Part shown: piece after piece, positions 33,649 through 52,941 of the stretch | Numbering within the stretch: the first letter of the stretch is position 1 | How the letters are laid out: every line of letters starts with the position of its first letter | NCBI RefSeq assembly: GCF_001767255.1 | Contig: NZ_CP017639.1 | Span: forward strand, 1,758,875 to 1,822,874 | Source: Corynebacterium sp. NML98-0116 | GTDB taxonomy: Bacteria; Actinomycetota; Actinomycetes; Mycobacteriales; Mycobacteriaceae | Direction: 5' to 3' | DNA length: 64,000 nucleotides | Translations under genes and position numbers: made by a program | Notes under the pieces: model-generated | Told to the model about the DNA's origin: nothing | Seen by the model: only the letters and a program-made list of their open reading frames with translations | Databases searched by the model: none

Positions 33649-34371
33649 CTACTGTTTCGGCCGGAGGTGGTGCACATCTCCGACGCTGTACGCCGTGCCG
33701 TCGATGATCACTTCGCCCTCATCGTTGACCCCGTCGACAGTGCCGATCGCTTCACCATCATGCAGCTCAATGCGCACGTGCTGCCCGATCGTGCTGCACA
33801 CTTTGCGGTAGTCGGCCAGCAGCTGCGGGTCGCGCTGCTGCCACTGCGCGAAACGCTCACCCATCGCGCACAGCACCTGCGTGGTGAAGTCCACGAAGTC
33901 GACGTCGATCCCCTCGAGATTCAGCGCCGTTGCGGTGGGGATGGGCAGCTGCTCGGGCTCGAAGTTGAGGTTGATGCCGATGCCGACCACTACGCGCCCG
34001 TCCGCCAGTCCGGAGAGAATCCCGGCGAGCTTCTTCCCGCCGATCTGCACGTCGTTCGGCCATTTGAGCTGGGCCTGCGGCACGACGTCGGTCACCGCGA
34101 CGCCGGGCGCGATCGACAGCAGCCCGAACGGTGGCGGGTTGTCGTCGATGCGCAGCACCATGCTCATCGCCAGCTGCGCACCCTTCGGGCTGACCCACTT
34201 GCGGCCAAGTCGCCCGCGCGACGCCGTCTGCTCCCCCGCGATGAGCACGGTGCCGGGTTCGCCTTTGTTGAGGAGATCGTCGTTCGTCGACCCGGTGGTT
34301 TCCACCCAGCGCACCACCGGCCAATACTTTTCGACGCCCCGCTGGAGCCTGCTCAGTTCTTCAGCATTCAT
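33649..34371 (-). CDS. birA: Biotin-[acetyl-CoA-carboxylase] ligase
   Basis: BirA activates biotin and attaches it to the biotin carboxyl carrier domains of AccA3 and pyruvate carboxylase, both encoded in this window. The 240-residue product is the short form without the DNA-binding domain. It has TTGSTNDDL, the biotinyl-AMP loop ASRGRLGRKWVSP, and KWPNDVQIGGKKLAGIL. It lies upstream of the PH-domain gene and close to accD, as in relatives. Confidence 0.94.
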   Translation of the reverse strand: MNAEELSRLQRGVEKYWPVVRWVETTGSTNDDLLNKGEPGTVLIAGEQTASRGRLGRKWVSPKGAQLAMSMVLRIDDNPPPFGLLSIAPGVAVTDVVPQAQLKWPNDVQIGGKKLAGILSGLADGRVVVGIGINLNFEPEQLPIPTATALNLEGIDVDFVDFTTQVLCAMGERFAQWQQRDPQLLADYRKVCSTIGQHVRIELHDGEAIGTVDGVNDEGEVIIDGTAYSVGDVHHLRPKQ

Positions 34372-34402: not shown

Positions 34403-34825
34403 ATGACGATTCAACGTTTCCTCCGCAAGGCACTCATCCCGACGTTCGGGGTGGCCGGCATCCTGCACTTCATCAAACCAGAACCTTTCGATTCGATCGT
34501 TCCCGAGTCCCTCCCAGGTGAGGCCCGGACGTATACCTACGCGTCCGGCGCCGCGGAGTTGGCAGCTGCTGTGCTGCTGGCCGCGCCCAAGCTTGGCCCG
34601 GCGTCACATGCGGGACACCAGAAACGTGCGCCGAAGCTGCGCAAACTCGGTGGTGGCTTCGCAGCAGCGCTCTTGCTGGCCGTGTGGCCTGCGAACTTCG
34701 AGATGGCCCGCCAGTGGCGCAACAAGCCGTGGCAAAAGCAGGTGATCAGCATCGGTCGACTTCCGCTGCAGCTGCCGCTGATCTCAGCTGCGTGGAGCAT
34801 TTTCAAGGACCCGAGCATGCGCTAA
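34403..34825 (+). CDS. DoxX-like membrane protein
   Basis: The 140-residue protein has about three to four hydrophobic segments and the DoxX-family opening (FGVAGILHFIKPEPFDSIVP). A segment of about ten charged residues (HQKRAPKLRKLG) interrupts the membrane helices. The function is not known; some DoxX proteins act in thiol-redox complexes. It is divergent from birA and 105 bases before accD. Confidence 0.7.
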   Translation: MTIQRFLRKALIPTFGVAGILHFIKPEPFDSIVPESLPGEARTYTYASGAAELAAAVLLAAPKLGPASHAGHQKRAPKLRKLGGGFAAALLLAVWPANFEMARQWRNKPWQKQVISIGRLPLQLPLISAAWSIFKDPSMR

Positions 34826-34930: not shown

Positions 34931-36457
34931 ATGGGCGATAAATCTTCTTCCAAACCTGACATGTCGACGACTGCAGGCCGTATCCAAGATCTGCGCAACC
35001 GGCTTGACGAGGCCCAGGCGCCGCTTGGCCAGGACGCGATCGACGCGGTCCACGAGGCCGGGGACCTGACTGCGCGTGAGCGTGTCGAGCGTTTGCTGGA
35101 CGCGGGCTCCTTCGTGGAGGTCGACGCGCTGGCACGCCACCGCGTCGAGGCATACAAGATGGACCGCACCAAGCCGTCGACGGACGGTGTCGTGGCAGGT
35201 TACGGCCTTATCGACGGCCGCCGCGTGTGCGTATTCTCCCAGGACGCCACCATTTTCGACGGCGGCATCGGCGAGGTGTACGCCGAGAAGATCCTCAAAG
35301 TCTACGAGCTGGCCGCAAAGACTGGCGTGCCGGTAATCGGGTTCTACGACTCGCTCGGCCCGCGCTGGCAGGAGGGCGTCGTCACGGCTCACATGCAGGC
35401 GAAGATCCTGCGTGCTGCGACGCAGGCTTCTGGCCTGTTGCCGCAAATCGCCGTGGTTGCCGGCGAGGTTGCCACGCTTGCTGCCACCACTGTCCCGCTG
35501 GCTGACATGCGCATCATGGTCGACGGCGCGAGCCTTCACCTGGCCGCAACCGACGTCGCCTCCAAGGTCGCTGGTAGCGAGGTGACCGCGGAGCAGCTCG
35601 GCGGCGCGGACGTCCACGCGGCCACCACTGGTGTTGCAAACATTCGCGTCAGCACCGACGAGCAGGCTGTCGACGAGGTGCGCAAGCTCATGAGCTACCT
35701 GCCGCTGAACAACCGCGCGGCTGCTCCCGTGGCTGACGCCGCCGAGGGCGCTGACGCCAGCGTGCTTGACTCCCTGGTTCCCGACGAGGACGCCCAGCCA
35801 TACGACATCACCACCGTCATCGAGACGATCACCGACGGCGACTTCTACGAGCTCGGCGGCGCCCACGCCGGCAACGTCGTCACCGGGTTTGCGCACATTG
35901 ACGGTCGGGCGCTCGGCATCGTAGCCACGCAGCCAAGTGTGCTCGCTGGCTGCCTGAGCGCCGACGCTGCCCGAAAGGCCGCGCGCTTCATCCGCACCTG
36001 CGACGCGTTCAACCTGCCGCTGCTGCACATCGTGGACTGCCCAGGCTTCGTCCCGACCGTCGAGGAGGAGCAGGCAGGCGCCCTGTCCGCTGCGTCCACG
36101 CTGGCGTACGCCTTCGCTGAGGCCCAGGTGGGCACCATTACTGTGATCACGCGCAAGGCGCTCGGCACCGCCTACTCGGTGCTCGGCTCGAAGGGCCTGG
36201 GCGCTGACCTTGTCTTCGCGTGGCCGACCGCGCAGATCGCGCTGGCTGACGCACCGACGGCTGCTGAGGCGTTGGGCGTCGATACGCAGGCGTACGAGGA
36301 AGAAAACCTCAACCCCTACGTCGCTACCGAGCGCGGCCTTGTCGACGCCGTCATCGCACCTAGCGACACCCGCGCCCAGGTCGTGGAGGGCCTGCGCCTG
36401 CTGGAGCGCAAGGTTGTCTATCCGCCGCAGAAGAAGCACGGCAACCTGCCGCTGTAA
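34931..36457 (+). CDS. accD: Acyl-CoA carboxylase beta subunit, degenerate active site
   Basis: This 508-residue protein belongs to the biotin-dependent carboxyltransferase beta family (DtsR/AccD5). Position and conserved blocks agree: TTAGRIQDLRNRLDEA, TDGVVAGYGLIDGR, ARFIRTCDAFNLPLLHIVDC, AWPTAQIA and the tail KKHGNLPL. The two oxyanion-hole motifs are not conserved. At residues 178-184 the usual GACAGG reads GEVATLA, and after WPTAQIA the usual VMGA-x-GAV reads LADAPTA (438-444) with about 25 residues missing. It is therefore probably non-catalytic and structural within the long-chain acyl-CoA carboxylase. The frame is intact. Confidence 0.88.
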   Translation: MGDKSSSKPDMSTTAGRIQDLRNRLDEAQAPLGQDAIDAVHEAGDLTARERVERLLDAGSFVEVDALARHRVEAYKMDRTKPSTDGVVAGYGLIDGRRVCVFSQDATIFDGGIGEVYAEKILKVYELAAKTGVPVIGFYDSLGPRWQEGVVTAHMQAKILRAATQASGLLPQIAVVAGEVATLAATTVPLADMRIMVDGASLHLAATDVASKVAGSEVTAEQLGGADVHAATTGVANIRVSTDEQAVDEVRKLMSYLPLNNRAAAPVADAAEGADASVLDSLVPDEDAQPYDITTVIETITDGDFYELGGAHAGNVVTGFAHIDGRALGIVATQPSVLAGCLSADAARKAARFIRTCDAFNLPLLHIVDCPGFVPTVEEEQAGALSAASTLAYAFAEAQVGTITVITRKALGTAYSVLGSKGLGADLVFAWPTAQIALADAPTAAEALGVDTQAYEEENLNPYVATERGLVDAVIAPSDTRAQVVEGLRLLERKVVYPPQKKHGNLPL

Positions 36458-36679: not shown

Positions 36680-37273
36680 ATGCGGATTGTTCTCGCCTCA
36701 CAGTCGCCGTCGCGCCGAATGTTGCTCGAGCAGGGCGGCATCAAGCCGGTGCTTCGGCCCGCCAACATCGACGAGGATGCGGTGATCGCCTCGCTTGTCG
36801 ACGCCCCACCAGCGCACACCGTCGCCGCCCTCGCCCGCGCTAAGGCTGAGACCGTCGCCGGCGAGTTCCCTAACGACGTCGTGGTCGGCTGCGATTCCAT
36901 GCTGCTTCTGGACGGCCAGCTGCTGGGCAAGCCGCACACCGTTGAGGCCACGATCGAGCGCTGGCGTGCGCAACGCGGCAAGGCCGCAGAGCTGCTCACC
37001 GGCCACGCCGTCGCCTACAACGGCGAGTGGGTCACGGACACTGTGCGCACCACCATCCGCTTCGGTGAGGCAAGCGACGCCGACATCGTCGCCTACGCCA
37101 ATTCCGGCCAGCCGCTGCAGTGCGCGGGCGCGTTTACGCTCGAGGCGCTCGGCTCCTGGTTTATTGACTCCATTGACGGCGACCCAACCAGCGTCATCGG
37201 CTTGTCGATGCCGCTGCTGCGGCGCTGCCTCTATCACTTCGGACTGGACACGTCGGAGTTCTGGGTATCCTAG
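36680..37273 (+). CDS. maf: Maf-family nucleotide pyrophosphatase
   Basis: Maf proteins hydrolyse non-canonical or TTP/UTP-type nucleotides and influence septation. The 197-residue product has the N-terminal LASQSPSRRMLLEQGG and VVGCDSMLLLDGQ, QCAGAFTLEALG. It sits after accE as in mycobacteria (Rv3282). Confidence 0.92.
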   Translation: MRIVLASQSPSRRMLLEQGGIKPVLRPANIDEDAVIASLVDAPPAHTVAALARAKAETVAGEFPNDVVVGCDSMLLLDGQLLGKPHTVEATIERWRAQRGKAAELLTGHAVAYNGEWVTDTVRTTIRFGEASDADIVAYANSGQPLQCAGAFTLEALGSWFIDSIDGDPTSVIGLSMPLLRRCLYHFGLDTSEFWVS

Positions 37274-41679: not shown

Positions 41680-41815
41680 GCGCGCCCCCGCGACGCGTTT
41701 CATGCACTCCTCGCTATGAGAATCGCTGGGACCTACCGGCAAGTAGTAACATAGGGTGGCAAAATCCGATATATTTCGGCAAAGCTCAGACTCTTTGAGA
41801 AAGACGGGATTTTTT

Positions 41816-43588
41816 GTGCCTATTCACAATCAGCAAGTGACCAAGGTGTTGGTTGCAAACCGCGGCGAGATCGCGGTGCGCATCATTCGTGCTGCCCAGG
41901 ATGAAGGCATCGCGTCCGTTGTGGTGTACGCAGACAGCGACGCGGCCGCACCATATGTTTCCCTTGCCGATGAAGCGTTCGCCCTCGGCGGGGAAACCGC
42001 CGCAGAGACCTATCTGGACATGGCGAAGCTGCTCAAAGTGGCGGCGGATTCGGGCGCGGACGCCGTTCACCCCGGCTACGGTTTCCTCGCGGAAAACGCT
42101 GAATTCGCACAGAAAGTTATCGACGCCGGTTTGACCTGGATCGGCCCCTCCCCCGAGGCTATCGCCACGCTGGGTGACAAGGTGGCGGCCCGCGCCATCG
42201 CCGAAGCTGTCGACGCCCCGATGGCCCCCGGCACGAAACATCCGGTCGCAGACGAACAGGAAGTCCTTGCGTTCGCAGATGAGCACGGCCTCCCGATCGC
42301 GATTAAGGCCGCCTACGGCGGTGGCGGACGCGGTATGAAGGTCGCACATACGCGGGAAGAAATCCCGGAGCTGTTCGAGTCCGCGACCCGTGAGGCCGTT
42401 GCCGCTTTCGGCCGCGGCGAGTGCTTCGTGGAGCGCTACCTGGATAAGGCTCGCCACGTTGAGGCGCAGGTGCTCGCGGACCAGCACGGCAATGTCGTGG
42501 TCGTGGGTACCCGCGACTGCTCGCTGCAGCGCCGCTTCCAGAAGCTTATCGAGGAAGCCCCTGCACCGTTCCTCACCGATGAGCAGCGCGAGCGCATTGA
42601 GCGCTCCGCCGAGGCGATCTGTAAGGAAGCCGGCTACTCGGGCGCAGGCACCGTAGAGTACCTGGTTGGCGCTGACGGCCTGGTGTCTTTCTTGGAAGTC
42701 AACACGCGCCTCCAGGTAGAGCACCCGGTCACTGAGCTGACCACCGACCTGGACTTGGTACGCGAGCAGTTCCGTATCGCCCGTGGCGAGCAGCTCAGCA
42801 TCACGGAGACCCCAACGCCGCGCGGGCACGCATTTGAGTTCCGCATCAACGGCGAGGACCCAACCATCAACTTCATGCCTTCTCCTGGCCCGATCAACGT
42901 CTATCGCGAGCCAGCCGGGCCCGGCGTGCGCGTGGACTCCGGCGTGCGCGAAGGTTCGGCGATTAACGGTCAGTTTGACTCGATGCTGGCCAAGCTGATC
43001 GTGTACGGCGCAACGCGCGAGGAAGCGCTGAATCGTGCCCGCCGCGCGCTTGCGGAATACGTCGTCGAGGGCATCCCGACCGTGATCCCCTTCCACCGCG
43101 CAATGGTCGAGCACGACGCCTTTATCGGCGACGGCACCTCGTTCGACGTCTACACTCGTTGGATCGAAGAGGCCTGGGACGGCGAGATGCCAGCCGTCAC
43201 CGCAGCTGATGATCAAGGTGTGGAGGGCGAAGCAGGCGTCGATAAGCAGGTGTTTGCCGTGGAGGTTGACGGCCGCCGCATCGAGGTAGCCCTGCCTTCC
43301 GCACTCGTGCCCGGTGCGGGCCCTGCCCGCAAGCCGAAGAAGCGCCGCGCATCGGCCGCGAAGACCGCCGCATCCGGCGACGCCGTGACGGCGCCGATAC
43401 AGGGAACTTTGATCAAGGTCAACGTGGCAGAGGGCGACACCGTCGCTGAGGGCGACGTCCTCGTCGTGCTCGAGGCGATGAAGATGGAAAACCCGGTCAA
43501 GGCGCACAAGGATGGCGTCGTGACGGGCCTGGCAGCCGAGCAGGGCGCTCAAGCGGCCAAGGGCGCAACGCTCATGGAGTTGAAGTAG
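41816..43588 (+). CDS. accA3: Acyl-CoA carboxylase alpha subunit (biotin carboxylase and carrier)
   Basis: This 590-residue protein (AccBC/AccA3) carboxylates its own biotin and hands it to AccD subunits for malonyl-CoA and long-chain acyl carboxylation. Residues about 1-450 are biotin carboxylase ([17 protein letters not shown]-grasp [22 protein letters not shown]); the last 75 residues are the carrier domain with biotinyl-Lys in [13 protein letters not shown]. The GTG at 41816 gives the family N-terminus; the in-frame ATG 20 codons earlier looks non-coding. Biotinylation requires BirA (33649). Confidence 0.94.
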
Positions 43589-48500: not shown

Positions 48501-48968
48501 CTCGGCGAGCTCCGCCGGGTCAGTTGACGGCTCGGAGTCCTTCAACGTCGGCAGCCCGGCGCGCTCAGCAGCGTGCACAGCGGCCGCCTTGTCACCAGTC
48601 AGCTCAAGCGCCTCTGGGCTTGGGCCGATGAACTTAATGCCGTTGTCGCGGCAAGCGCGCGCAAGGTCTGCGCGCTCCGAGAGGAACCCATAGCCCGGGT
48701 AAATTGCATCGGCGCCGGTCTCTTTCGCCGCACGGATAATTTCGTCGATGTCCAGGTACGCCTTGACCGGCTGGCCCTCAACACCAATTCGTACGGCTTC
48801 GTCGGCGAACGGTCGGTGGTAGGACTTTCGGTCCTCGCGCGGGTACACCGCGACAGTTTTTGCGCCAGTCTCAAATGCTGCGCGGAAGGCACGAACCGCG
48901 ATTTCGCCACGGTTTGCTACCAAGATCTTTTTGAATGCCGGGAGGTCATTCAGGGGGAGCTGCTCCAT
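45546..48968 (-). CDS. pyc: Pyruvate carboxylase
   Basis: Pyc makes oxaloacetate from pyruvate, the main anaplerotic step in corynebacteria. The 1140-residue product has the usual length and order: biotin carboxylase ([26 protein letters not shown]), the HMGL-like carboxyltransferase domain (TTFRDAHQSLLATR, AIKDMAGLMRPG, VHVHTHDTAGG) and the C-terminal biotinyl domain with EAMKME. The ATG at 48968 has AAGGA 8 bases upstream and is preferred over one nine codons earlier. Confidence 0.97.
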   Translation of the reverse strand: MEQLPLNDLPAFKKILVANRGEIAVRAFRAAFETGAKTVAVYPREDRKSYHRPFADEAVRIGVEGQPVKAYLDIDEIIRAAKETGADAIYPGYGFLSERADLARACRDNGIKFIGPSPEALELTGDKAAAVHAAERAGLPTLKDSEPSTDPAELAEIAKEFTFPVFVKAVAGGGGRGMRFIEKIEDVERLAAEASREAEAAFGDGHVYLERAVIRPQHIEVQIMADSYGNVVHLFERDCSLQRRHQKVVEIAPAQHITQEQRERICQDAVNFCKEINYEGAGTVEFLVDEQGNHVFIEMNPRVQVEHTVTEEITGVDIVKNQMYIAAGAKLEDVHLTQDLIEMNGAALQCRITTEDPNNGFRPDSGVITGYSSPGGAGVRLDGSANVGTEITPNFDSLLVKMTCRGRNFQVAVDRALRALNEFTVTGVSTNIGFLRALLSDEDFRFKRINTGFINDHPFLLEAPAAADDAGKILDYLANVTVNKPNGPRPTSIRPSKKLPEFDYGDLPRGSRDDLLELGPTKWAEKIRNQTALGVTETTFRDAHQSLLATRIRTNTLVAAAKHVGHMTPQLASVEAWGGATYDVGMRFLHESPWMRLDALREAIPNVNIQMLLRGRNTVGYTPYPDSVTKAFVNEAASSGIDIFRIFDALNDVSQMRPAIEAVLETNTTVAEVAMAYSGNLLDPAEDIYTLDYYLRLAEEIVDAGAHVLAIKDMAGLMRPGAAAKLVKALRERFDLPVHVHTHDTAGGQLATYLAAANAGADIVDVASAPLAGTTSQPSLSALVAAFANTERDTGIDLQAVSDLEPYWEAVRQVYAPFESGIPGPTGRVYKHEIPGGQLSNLRTQAKALGLGNRFELIEDYYAAVNEILGRPTKVTPSSKVVGDLALHLVGAGVDPKDFAENPRKYDIPESVIGFLQGELGTPPGGWPLLRDKALEDRQEVDHTVDVPEELAGDLDSEDHVTRRAALDQLLFPKQYKEFLEHRRTYGITDHLSDRTFFYGLVEGEETMIWYGELEDHLPPLVVNLDAVGEPDEKGMRQVILTVNGQIRPMQVRDENAESTVAEVEKADPSQEGHVAAPFAGVVNVTVKPGDEVKAGDQVASIEAMKMEAAISATKDGTIERVAFTQATKVEGGDLVVVIS

Positions 48969-49096
48969 CGATGCAATCCTTCCATACTGTGACATACGTG
49001 ACAGTTTGAATGTTATTTGGTTGGCCTGACAATCCTAACGCAGGTTGGCGCCACACCACGGGAAAATGCACAATTGCATCTGTTCCCATAGCGATT

Positions 49097-49113
49097 ACCC
49101 CCCAAGTTGGGGT
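49097..49113. promoter_or_regulatory. G/C-tract palindrome upstream of pyc, possible RamA site
   Basis: The sequence ACCCCCCAAGTTGGGGT is nearly palindromic (CCCCAA-G-TTGGGG) and lies about 130 bases before the pyc start, between pyc and the prp terminator. Paired AC-tract and G-tract-T elements fit the published loose motif of the carbon regulator RamA. This is only a candidate. Confidence 0.35.
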
Positions 49114-49148
49114 CAGCGGTCAACGCCTCTCATATAAAAACAAACAAA

Positions 49149-49181
49149 ACGGATGGTCCGCCCCAAAGGCAGACCACCCGT
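49149..49181 (-). terminator. Rho-independent terminator of the prpD-prpB-prpC operon
   Basis: A 14-bp stem (49149-49162 with 49168-49181, loop of 5) is followed on the minus strand by TTTTGTTTGTTTTT. Two positions pair as G-U only in the minus-strand RNA, which fixes the orientation. It ends the methylcitrate operon 10 bases after prpC. Confidence 0.9.
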
Positions 49182-49190
49182 CGTTCTGGC

Positions 49191-50351
49191 TTACTGCGGC
49201 TGGTAGGTGCCGTCCAGGTGACGCTCCTCCGGGCCGTTGTACGCGGACAGTGGGCGGATCAGCGAGTTGTTCTCGTACTGCTCAATGATGTGCGCGGTCC
49301 AGCCGGTGATGCGGCTCATCACGAACAGCGGCGTGAAGAACTCGATGTCAAAGCCCAGGATGTAGTAGGACGGGCCGGACGGGAAGTCCAGGTTCGGGCG
49401 GATGTTGATGGACGTGTTCTCGTACATCGTCTTCGCCATGATGTCGTAGATTTCCACCCACTTCTCGGCGCCCTGGTCCTTGTGCTCCGCGGCGAGCTTC
49501 TTGAACGCGGCTTCCATGGTCGGCACGCGCGAGTCGCCCTTCTTGTACACGCGGTGGCCGAAGCCCATGACGAGCTCCTTGTTCTTCAGCTTGTTCAGGC
49601 ACCACTGCTCCGCGTTTGCTGGGTCGTCGATTTCCTTCATGTGGTGCATGACGAACTCGTTCGCGCCACCGTGCAGCGGGCCCTTCAGTGCGCCGATAGC
49701 CGCGGTGATCGCGGACCAGGCGTCGGACTGCGTCGAGGTCACCGTGCGGGCGGTGAACGTGGAGGCGTTGAAGGAGTGCTCCGCGTAGAGAATCATGGTC
49801 TTCTCGAATGCCTCAATATCCGACGGGATGGTTGCCGGGGAGCCTTCCTCGTCGCCGAAGACCATCCAGAGGAAGTTCTCCGAGAAGCCCTTGTCCTTGC
49901 TCGGGGCGATGTAGCCCTTGCCCTGGCGGCGGCGAATGTCGGTGGCCACGATGGTCGGCAGCTTCGCCAGCAGCTCGGTACCGATCTTGCGGATGTGGTC
50001 AGCATCCGGGGTGAACTTGTACTCGTCGCGGGTGCCCAGGAAGGACACTGCGGTGCGCAGCACGTCCATCGGGTGGCAGTCCTTCGGCAGGTAGTTAATG
50101 ACCTGGATGAGTTCCTCATCGATGTCGCGGTTGTTCATGCATCCGAGGCGGAACTCCTCTGCGCCCGACTTGTCTGGCAGCTCGCCGTGCCAAAGCAGGT
50201 ACGCAACCTCTTCGAAGGTGCAGTGCTCTGCCAGCTCGTGGACCGGGTAACCGTAGTACAGCAGGGAGTTGGTCTCAGGGTTGACCTTGGAGATTGCGGT
50301 GTAGTCCGCAACGACGCCAGCGAGGCCCTTCTTGATTTCTTGAGTGGTCAT
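49191..50351 (-). CDS. prpC: 2-methylcitrate synthase
   Basis: PrpC condenses propionyl-CoA with oxaloacetate. The 386-residue citrate-synthase-family enzyme has the catalytic residues in SFNASTFTAR, PLHGGANEFVM and GFGHRVYKKGDSR. Operon context with prpB and prpD separates it from citrate synthase. TGAAAGGA precedes the ATG. It is the last gene of the operon. Confidence 0.95.
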   Translation of the reverse strand: MTTQEIKKGLAGVVADYTAISKVNPETNSLLYYGYPVHELAEHCTFEEVAYLLWHGELPDKSGAEEFRLGCMNNRDIDEELIQVINYLPKDCHPMDVLRTAVSFLGTRDEYKFTPDADHIRKIGTELLAKLPTIVATDIRRRQGKGYIAPSKDKGFSENFLWMVFGDEEGSPATIPSDIEAFEKTMILYAEHSFNASTFTARTVTSTQSDAWSAITAAIGALKGPLHGGANEFVMHHMKEIDDPANAEQWCLNKLKNKELVMGFGHRVYKKGDSRVPTMEAAFKKLAAEHKDQGAEKWVEIYDIMAKTMYENTSINIRPNLDFPSGPSYYILGFDIEFFTPLFVMSRITGWTAHIIEQYENNSLIRPLSAYNGPEERHLDGTYQPQ

Positions 50352-51324: not shown

Positions 51325-52836
51325 TTAGAAAATCCCTCCTGGGATCTGAGGAGCATTGGCTTGCGCGTCCGCGTTCACCTTGATGTTGAGCTTGCTCAAG
51401 TCGGTGAGCTGCTCGAGGTTCTGCACGTCTTCAAGGAAACGGTCCTGCTCTTCCTTATCGACGATCCCTTCCGCCAGCGTGCGGAACTTCTGGATGTACT
51501 GCTCACGGGCAAACGGGCGTGCCCCCAGTGGGTGAGCGTCCGCCACGGCCATCTCATCCTCGATGACGGTGCCGTCGTTGAAGGTGATGACGGCCTTTGC
51601 GCCGAACGCCTTCTCGGCCGGGTCCTGCGAGTGGTAGCGGCGCGTCCACTCCGGGTCCTCGACGGTGGAGATCTTGTGCCACAGCGTGACCGTCTCTGGG
51701 CGGTTCGCGCGTTCCGGGGCGTAGGAGTCGACGTGGTGCCACGTGCCGTCCTCGAGTGCTACGGCGAAGATGTACATAATCGAGTGGTCGAGGGTCTCGC
51801 GGGATGCCTTCGGGTCCATCTTCTGAGGGTCGTTGGCGCCGGTGCCGATGACGTAGTGCGTGTGGTGCGAGGTGTGCAGCACGATGGACTCGATATCGGC
51901 GGTGGACTTACCGGCATCCGCGATGGTCTGCTTCATGCGGCGCGCCAGGTCGATTGGGGCCTGCGACTGGTACTCAGCCGAATGCTCCTTGGTGTAGGTA
52001 TCCAGGATTGCGCGCTTTGCCTCACCGTCTGCAGGCAGTGGCACCACGTAGGTGCGTTCTGGGGAATGCAGCATCCAGGCGATGAAGCCGTCCTCGCCCT
52101 CCCAAATCGGAGCGGGTGCACCCTCGCCGCGCATCGCGCGGTCGACGGCCTCGATGCCCATCTTGCCGGCGAATGCCGGGGCGGACGCCTTCCAAGAAGA
52201 GATGAGGCCCTTGCGGGACTGGCGCGTCGCCGTCGTAGTGTGCAGCGCCTGGCCAACCGCCTGGTAGATGGTGTCAATGTCCAGGTTCAGCATGGTGCCC
52301 AGACCCGCCGCAACAGATGGGCCGAGGTGCGCCACGTGGTCAATCTTCCACTCGTGCAGGCAAATACCCTTGACCAGGTTGACCTGGATCTCGTAGCCGG
52401 TCGCGATACCACGGATCAGCGCCTTACCGTCGAGGCCCTTGTGCTGTGCTACTGCAAGGATCGGCGGAATGTTGTCGCCCGGGTGGGAGTACTCCGCCGC
52501 GAGGAAGGTGTCGTGGAAGTCCAGCTCGCGGACCGCTGTACCGTTGGCGAATGCGGCCCACTCTGCGGAGTAGGAGCCGTCGACACCAAAAATCTGCGCA
52601 CCGCCTTCGGATACTGGATGTGCCTCCGCCATCACGCGAGCGGTCGCGACTGGGCGGCGACCGTAGGAAGCGACGGCGACCGACGCATTGTCGATAATGC
52701 GGTTGATGATCATCTCAGTCGTATCAGCTGGAACCTCTACCGGGTCTGCTGCAACCTTGGCGATCTTGTATGCGAGGTGCTCTTCAATCGGGAAATCTTC
52801 TGCCGAACGGTGCGTGCGCACGTTGTGTTCGATCAT
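51325..52836 (-). CDS. prpD: 2-methylcitrate dehydratase
   Basis: PrpD dehydrates methylcitrate. The 503-residue MmgE/PrpD-family protein shows [27 protein letters not shown] (central part [19 protein letters not shown]), the [12 protein letters not shown] block and [16 protein letters not shown]. It is the first gene of the operon and divergent from prpR. Length is normal. Confidence 0.95.
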
Positions 52837-52941
52837 CTTGGCTCCTTCGTCTTCGTTGTAGTTCCGCTACCGCGAAACCTCGTTGATGTTGCAGCTCATA
52901 CTAGGGAGCCAAATGTGATGCGGGCCATGATTTTCGCATGT

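Follow-up and report, generated by a model that had tools for sequence, protein, structure and literature searches.

A catalytically degenerate AccD2 as a candidate scaffold subunit of the long-chain acyl-CoA carboxylase in Corynebacterium

In most Corynebacterium genomes sampled here, the carboxyltransferase beta subunit encoded next to accE has lost conserved glycines of its active site. The protein studied is encoded in a 64,000-nucleotide stretch of Corynebacterium sp. NML98-0116 (the window; the genome is a single contig of 2,365,449 bases). We consider it quite likely that this AccD2 is a pseudo-carboxyltransferase kept as a scaffold of the long-chain acyl-CoA carboxylase (LCC) that primes mycolic acid synthesis, with AccD3 doing the chemistry. 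The loss of the site, its spread, the conservation of the remainder of the protein, the presence of the partners, and the predicted fold form the basis for this proposal. The features discussed are listed in Table 1.

Table 1. Features in and around accD2, with positions counted from the first nucleotide of the window
Feature	Coordinates	Strand	Basis
accD2, AccE-linked carboxyltransferase beta subunit, AccD5 type, catalytically degenerate	34931..36457	+	open ORF, 508 aa
N-domain oxyanion motif, residues 178-184: GEVATLA replaces GxxAGGx, both glycines gone	35462..35482	+	
C-domain oxyanion motif, residues 412-415: GTAY replaces GGAY	36164..36175	+	
Residues 438-444: LADAPTA replaces VMGAxGA (the earlier note's second motif)	36242..36262	+	
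Stretch 445-462: 18 residues (median in active enzymes, 36-37)	36263..36316	+	
Residues 138-149: FYDSLGPRWQEG replaces IN[ED]GAGARIQEG, with Ala144 of active enzymes changed to Pro	35342..35377	+	
C-terminal tail KKHGNLPL, conserved	36431..36454	+	
accE, epsilon subunit, 67 aa	36473..36676	+	PF13822, 38.7 bits
accBC, biotin carboxylase and biotin carrier subunit, 610 aa, AccA3 type	41756..43588	+	profile and solved-relative matches
birA-like gene, upstream neighbor, synteny marker	33649..34371	-	
maf-like gene, downstream neighbor, synteny marker	36680..37273	+	

The codons of accD2 (34931-36454) form an uninterrupted frame. The Carboxyl_trans domain (PF01039) spans the whole protein at 431.7 bits, against a cut-off of 22.3, and the best solved relatives are mycobacterial AccD5 chains (497 bits). 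Among the NCBIfam matches listed, those of AccD2, AccD3, and AccBC were all under their cut-offs, and AccE had none. The accE gene lies directly 3' of accD2, the order expected of the AccD5/AccD2 subunit of the LCC. The names birA and maf given to the two marker genes are our assumption, as is that of a small DoxX-like membrane protein gene between birA and accD2 (34403-34825), a relative of which stands immediately 5' of accD2 in 7 of 100 scanned loci.

The earlier note had read GEVATLA and LADAPTA in place of two oxyanion motifs, and the translated frame bears out both readings. In five alignments with S. coelicolor PccB and M. tuberculosis AccD5, AGG becomes ATL (181-183) and KA[YF]GGAY becomes KALGTAY (409-415); in the alignments to solved relatives, the AGG of GPCAGGA or GAAAGGH falls on ATL and VMGAxGA falls on LADAPTA. 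We take G182-G183 and G419-A420, the latter within KAFGGAY, as the two oxyanion pairs in PccB of S. coelicolor. Counted along the alignment, these pairs correspond to T182-L183 and T413-A414 of the query. The note was thus right that both oxyanion holes are lost but not in placing the second at VMGA: it corresponds to KALGTAY, with T413, and LADAPTA is a neighboring lost motif. Residues are indeed missing after the latter, about 19 rather than the 25 proposed, while the open frame and the intact tail were found as described. The possibility that the glycines are shifted rather than lost, which the note had named as a refuting outcome, is ruled out by the five alignments with solved relatives together with the family alignment, in which they are absent and not displaced.

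According to PMC5187497, Ala145, Gly184, and Gly420 of MccB are among the residues that contact the substrate, each through its backbone NH, and the active site is shared across the dimer, one monomer contributing N-terminal residues and the opposing one C-terminal residues. Mapped by the motifs GGAR, AGG, and GGAY only, these three residues correspond to P144, L183, and T413 of the window protein. For methylcrotonyl-CoA carboxylase, Ala148, Gly191, Phe380, and Gly421 are named for an oxyanion role in PMC5991677. In the human PCC structure 8zv3, the G202A/G203A mutations probably affect this same pair of glycines (AGG), judging from their position. Since AccD2 has ATL and GTAY where an active carboxyltransferase carries the oxyanion glycines of AGG and GGAY, we class it as a relative by descent and fold, not as an active enzyme.

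To follow the loss across the genus, we sampled 101 Corynebacterium genomes, comprising the window's and 100 drawn evenly at a completeness of at least 95%. The accD2 locus was found through the Pfam match of accE or, in 11 genomes without one, through the best AccD2 match; the loci of G052, G072, and G074 were located by a separate search, and L175 and L176, which first matched another carboxyltransferase, were swapped for the correct AccD2. When a protein missing AGG and/or MGA is called degenerate and one with both motifs intact, AccD2 is degenerate in 73 of the 101 genomes and intact in 28. The GG pair, G413, and G440 are all gone in 71 of the 73 degenerate proteins; G413 is lost in every one, and the GG pair and G183 in 72. 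The AccD2 of G083 still has the MGA glycine, and that of G085 (L087) keeps the pair as TGG but reads GDAY and MNA, with GAGARIQEG changed to GEGARIQEG. Judging by the sequences, the G085 protein is possibly in a half-way state following a recent loss, its clade mates in the AccD3 tree, G042 and G044, being intact.

By comparison, none of the 199 active-type sequences lacks the GG pair (182-183) or G413; this set comprises 28 intact AccD2 (which keep the GG pair by definition), 62 AccD1, 81 AccD3, and 28 wider-family proteins. All 62 AccD1 (46 in tandem with accD2, 16 elsewhere) and all 81 AccD3 fetched, out of 92 genomes having AccD3, retain both features. The wider-family proteins came from 27 loci, 25 in other genera and 2 in the same genus, chosen as the best-scoring new loci of 151 genomes, and genera beyond Corynebacterium are covered as a sample. 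The AccD1 counts exclude L194-L197, four of the 20 carboxyltransferases fetched separately, which belong to other types; three of them carry AGG and MGA, and one carries TAG and MGG.

We reject a sequencing error or local oddity, since G048, a genome of the window's species, is in the identical degenerate state. All 15 named relatives examined (L033-L047) are degenerate as well, a biased sample in that they were retrieved with peptides of the window's own AccD2. The degenerate proteins carry SL, GL, GI, GP, TL, or a single D or E with a gap at 182-183 and GPAY, GPSY, GTAY, or GDAY at 412-415. The stretch 445-462 comprises at most 24 residues in 62 of the 73 and 37 residues in the other 11, so its deletion is not part of every loss. 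A short AccD2 subtype of 445-458 aa (L124, L130, L131, L136, L138, L142, L146, and L150) has a strongly remodeled N-domain site, reading KPRAQEG, YADSKE, or similar, and APRAQEG in L150.

Oxyanion holes use backbone NH groups, and a non-glycine residue alone is therefore no proof of inactivity. This feature of the chemistry leaves room for AccD2 still being a carboxyltransferase in which other residues provide the oxyanion NH groups, with an altered rate or substrate; its predicted fold is intact, and it retains K421, W431, P432, and numerous further conserved positions, which is compatible with such activity. However, the replacements are varied and converge on no new common motif, several separate conserved sites vanish together, and proline, which offers no NH, occupies position 413 in 29 and position 144 in 44 of the 73 degenerate proteins. 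We consider continued catalysis by AccD2 very unlikely and keep to the scaffold proposal.

The remainder of the protein is under selection. The accD2 frame is open in all 101 genomes (only open frames were taken, and none was missing). We estimated dN/dS by the Nei-Gojobori method with our own script on pairs of genomes, some of which have a genome in common. Degenerate AccD2 gave 0.038-0.278 (25 pairs) and intact AccD2 0.014-0.062 (9 pairs), the window's AccD2 yielding 0.038 against G022 and 0.051 against G048. For AccD3, values of 0.008-0.149 were obtained in 20 of the 25 degenerate pairs; AccD2 lies above AccD3 in all 20, and the constraint on AccD2 is therefore weaker. AccD1 ranged from 0.023 to 0.162 in 10 pairs and exceeded AccD2 in 2 of them. 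A pseudogene is disfavored by the open frames and by these values. Among the 199 active-type sequences, 157 columns are at least 95% identical, and 94 of these are kept (at least 80%) in 71 degenerate proteins, G083 and G085 being excluded from this count. Six of the 157 are kept in none of the 71 (G110, G183, Y186, T191, G413, and G440 in query numbering), while K421, W431, and P432 are retained, as are R145 and G178 of the N-domain. Selection thus maintains degenerate AccD2, less tightly than AccD3, in keeping with the earlier note's statement that the rest of the protein is conserved and selected.

The higher dN/dS of AccD2 relative to AccD3 in all 20 comparable pairs, together with its long branches, would also be expected if the gene were decaying under relaxed selection and heading for loss, and we gave slight weight in the same direction to the partial upstream synteny and the lack of a deletion in 11 of the 73. 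Decay is nevertheless highly improbable in our view, given a frame open in 101 of 101 genomes, dN/dS values of 0.04-0.28 that AccD1 exceeds in 2 of 10 pairs, 94 of 157 conserved columns kept, and the retention of accE and maf directly downstream. Maintenance of AccD2 as a scaffold is the reading that we pursue below.

A tree of 62 selected rows, rooted on other genera and built after 42 of the lost columns had been taken out, nests the degenerate proteins among the AccE-linked AccD2, with branch supports of 90 and 99; they group with AccE-linked AccD2/AccD5 and not with AccD1 or AccD3. In a fasttree tree of 172 rows with all columns, they fall outside intact AccD2 and AccD1. AccD1 forms its own clade, and neither the trees nor the motifs place AccD2 in it. 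Both AccD2 trees unite all degenerate proteins but that of G085 in one clade. An AccD3 tree of 81 of the 92 genomes having AccD3 requires three changes of state, forced by its starred branches, G085 being one of them, and the AU test rejects a single clade of degenerates (p 0.0025; 65 of the 81 rows, after we had chosen beforehand to set aside G085 along with 15 near-duplicate or closely related rows). The joint clade in the AccD2 trees may come from long branches or from gene transfer. These sequence comparisons suggest at least two losses of the site, one of them in G085, and probably three.

Gene order was compared between the two main degenerate clades. The maf gene lies 3' in 57 of 57 other loci of the window's clade and in 12 of 12 of the second. 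Similarity to the window's accE identified this gene in 57/57 and 3/12 loci, respectively; of the 14 genomes in the second clade, Pfam detected accE above its cut-off in 1 and under it in another 2. A loss of AccE in the second clade is rejected, since an AccE-like ORF was seen by eye between accD2 and maf in all 12 loci inspected (G052 and G074 were left out). These ORFs (L158, L165, L166-L174, and L177) are mostly too divergent for Pfam. Such divergence may explain part of the species reported as "AccE not detected" in PMC8733736. The stretch fetched around accD2 included a birA-like gene in 17 of 57 loci of the window's clade and in 12 of 12 of the second, and the upstream side is therefore less conserved in the former. 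Across the sample, AccD1 is encoded immediately upstream of accD2 in tandem in 46 of 101 loci. In five loci, L148 (G008), L149 (G046), L150 (G051), L153 (G030), and L162 (G079), AccE is matched twice, once near AccD2 and a second time near the tandem AccD1, as if there were an epsilon per beta subunit.

A count of Carboxyl_trans genes in the window's whole genome, as the earlier note had advised, gave two, AccD2 and an intact AccD3; no AccD1, no second AccD5-type subunit, and no FAS-I (PF08354) were found in this genome. The best solved match of the window's AccD3 is AccD4 of the LCC entries (576 bits), and its motifs are intact (GKSAGG, GGAY, and MGS). It begins at the end of a pks13-like frame, a name that we assume from the place of the gene and its C-terminal part. 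The genome thus holds the LCC partners AccD3 (AccD4 type), AccBC (AccA3 type), and Pks13.

Exactly two PF01039 matches occur in 15 of the 101 genomes, including the window's and that of G048, from the same species. All 15 have a degenerate AccD2 and an AccD3, and FAS-I was found in none of them; AccD3 is therefore the sole remaining subunit expected to catalyze there. FAS-I is present in 72 of the 101 genomes. In ten genomes (L178, L180, L183-L188, L191, and L192), the AccD1 gene is separate from accD2 and lies no more than about 3 kb from a FAS-I match, for example in G002 (accD1 at 51424-52917, FAS match at 48864-49832). PMC8733736 lists 29 corynebacterial species without fas, many of them lipophilic, and describes C. 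lipophiloflavum as a lipophilic species for which mycolic acids have been reported. In our sample, C. lipophiloflavum (L042) has a degenerate AccD2, AccD3, and two further distant Carboxyl_trans matches, and no FAS-I was found in it.

Degenerate AccD2 occurs with AccD3 in 72 genomes and without it in none, one genome not being assessable: in G016, AccD3 was not found, and a pks13 fragment lies inside a reported frame of 14,572 aa, which we took as an N stretch. Intact AccD2 occurs with AccD3 in 20 genomes and without it in 8, and every AccD3-less genome (8/8) has an intact AccD2. We sought pks13 in three of these eight and did not find it. The eight belong to two lineages of the AccD2 tree and hence are not eight independent points, so that the co-occurrence is suggestive rather than a strong statistic.

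The same neighborhood bears on whether AccD2 might have taken on a new role, the earlier note's second suggestion, binding acyl-CoA or CoA without turnover and regulating the LCC or another process. Apart from some retained N-domain positions (R145 and G178), nothing direct speaks for such a role or against it. The adjacent accE, the nearby accBC, and the co-occurrence with AccD3 indicate a carboxylase. We regard it as quite unlikely, and a structural part in the LCC remains the preferred explanation.

The AlphaFold model of AccD2, made with 64 Corynebacterium sequences, has a pLDDT of 93.0 and a pTM of 0.91. Its nearest chains in Foldseek belong to the M. smegmatis LCC (9yx2, 9yx1, and 9yx4), those of 9yx2 and 9yx1 being assigned to AccD5 by length and identity. 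VIA-align gave Z scores of 49.5 for transcarboxylase 12S, 49.1 for AccD5 (2bzr), and 47.0-47.5 for the LCC chains, which are small differences. With matches to AccD5, PccB, and transcarboxylase 12S at Z 47-49.5, the model predicts a carboxyltransferase fold. Six entries (9t97, 9tdm, 9yx1, 9yx2, 9yx4, and 9yx5) contain AccA3, AccD4, AccD5, and AccE5 together, with 12 AccD4 and 24 AccD5 chains in total, or 2:4 on average. If the Corynebacterium LCC were built like the mycobacterial one, AccD2 would fill four of its six places.

AccD2 would retain the AccD5 fold, and presumably its assembly surfaces, without the chemistry of carboxyl transfer, which AccD3 would perform in the LCC. The site spans the N-domain of one partner and the C-domain of the other, and AccD3 has both halves while AccD2 has neither; a mixed AccD2-AccD3 dimer would therefore lack a complete site, and the AccD3-AccD3 dimer would be the working pair. 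In line with the structural subunit of the LCC that the earlier note had suggested, we infer an inactive AccD2, a 2:4 ring in Corynebacterium, and AccD3-AccD3 as the sole active pair.

More broadly, we lean toward the view that, in most of the genus, the AccE-linked AccD is a dedicated dead scaffold that arose by at least two and perhaps three separate losses, solely in genomes with AccD3. One live and one dead subunit would then make up the whole carboxyltransferase set of 15 of the 101 genomes. Their LCC would be an obligate ring and, if it resembles the 2:4 mycobacterial complex, would have four subunits of six that never catalyze.

Corynebacterium would then offer a natural experiment in which the catalytic residues are gone and the subunit is retained. 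Degenerate AccD2 sequences can mark the surfaces relevant to assembly and predict AccD3-AccD3 as the working pair. AccD2 is thereby suggested to be a building part of an enzyme that contributes to the synthesis of the waxy coat of the cell. Our results also suggest that the counts of "AccD5/AccD6 homologues" per genome in PMC8733736 overestimate the capacity for malonyl-CoA and methylmalonyl-CoA, chiefly in genomes without FAS-I. Within the literature searched, from which subscription papers were mostly out of scope, we found no mention of corynebacterial AccD2 having lost its oxyanion residues, nor of a pseudoenzyme among carboxyltransferases or acyl-CoA carboxylases.

Among known systems, Corynebacterium AccD1 is a paralogue of AccD2, presumably with acetyl-CoA carboxylase function, and retains the motifs (62/62) that AccD2 has lost here. 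The accD2 gene of C. glutamicum is, we assume, located beside accE. Together with accD3, it has a role in mycolic acid synthesis, as cited in PMC5501465. Mycobacterial AccD5 is the best match in both sequence and fold (47-50% identity), its gene adjoins that of the epsilon subunit as in the window, and it belongs to the A3-D4-D5-E5 complex. Bazet Lyonnet et al. reportedly argued in 2017 that its role is structural, not catalytic, for long-chain substrates. AccD5 is an active propionyl- and acetyl-CoA carboxyltransferase according to PMC4064979 and PMC5311964, the former of which leaves undecided whether it is functional or merely structural in the mycobacterial complex. A structural role of AccD5 was proposed earlier; what seems to be new is a dedicated dead scaffold shared by most of a genus. 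Mycobacterial AccD5 retains both oxyanion motifs, whereas the window's AccD2 is without them.
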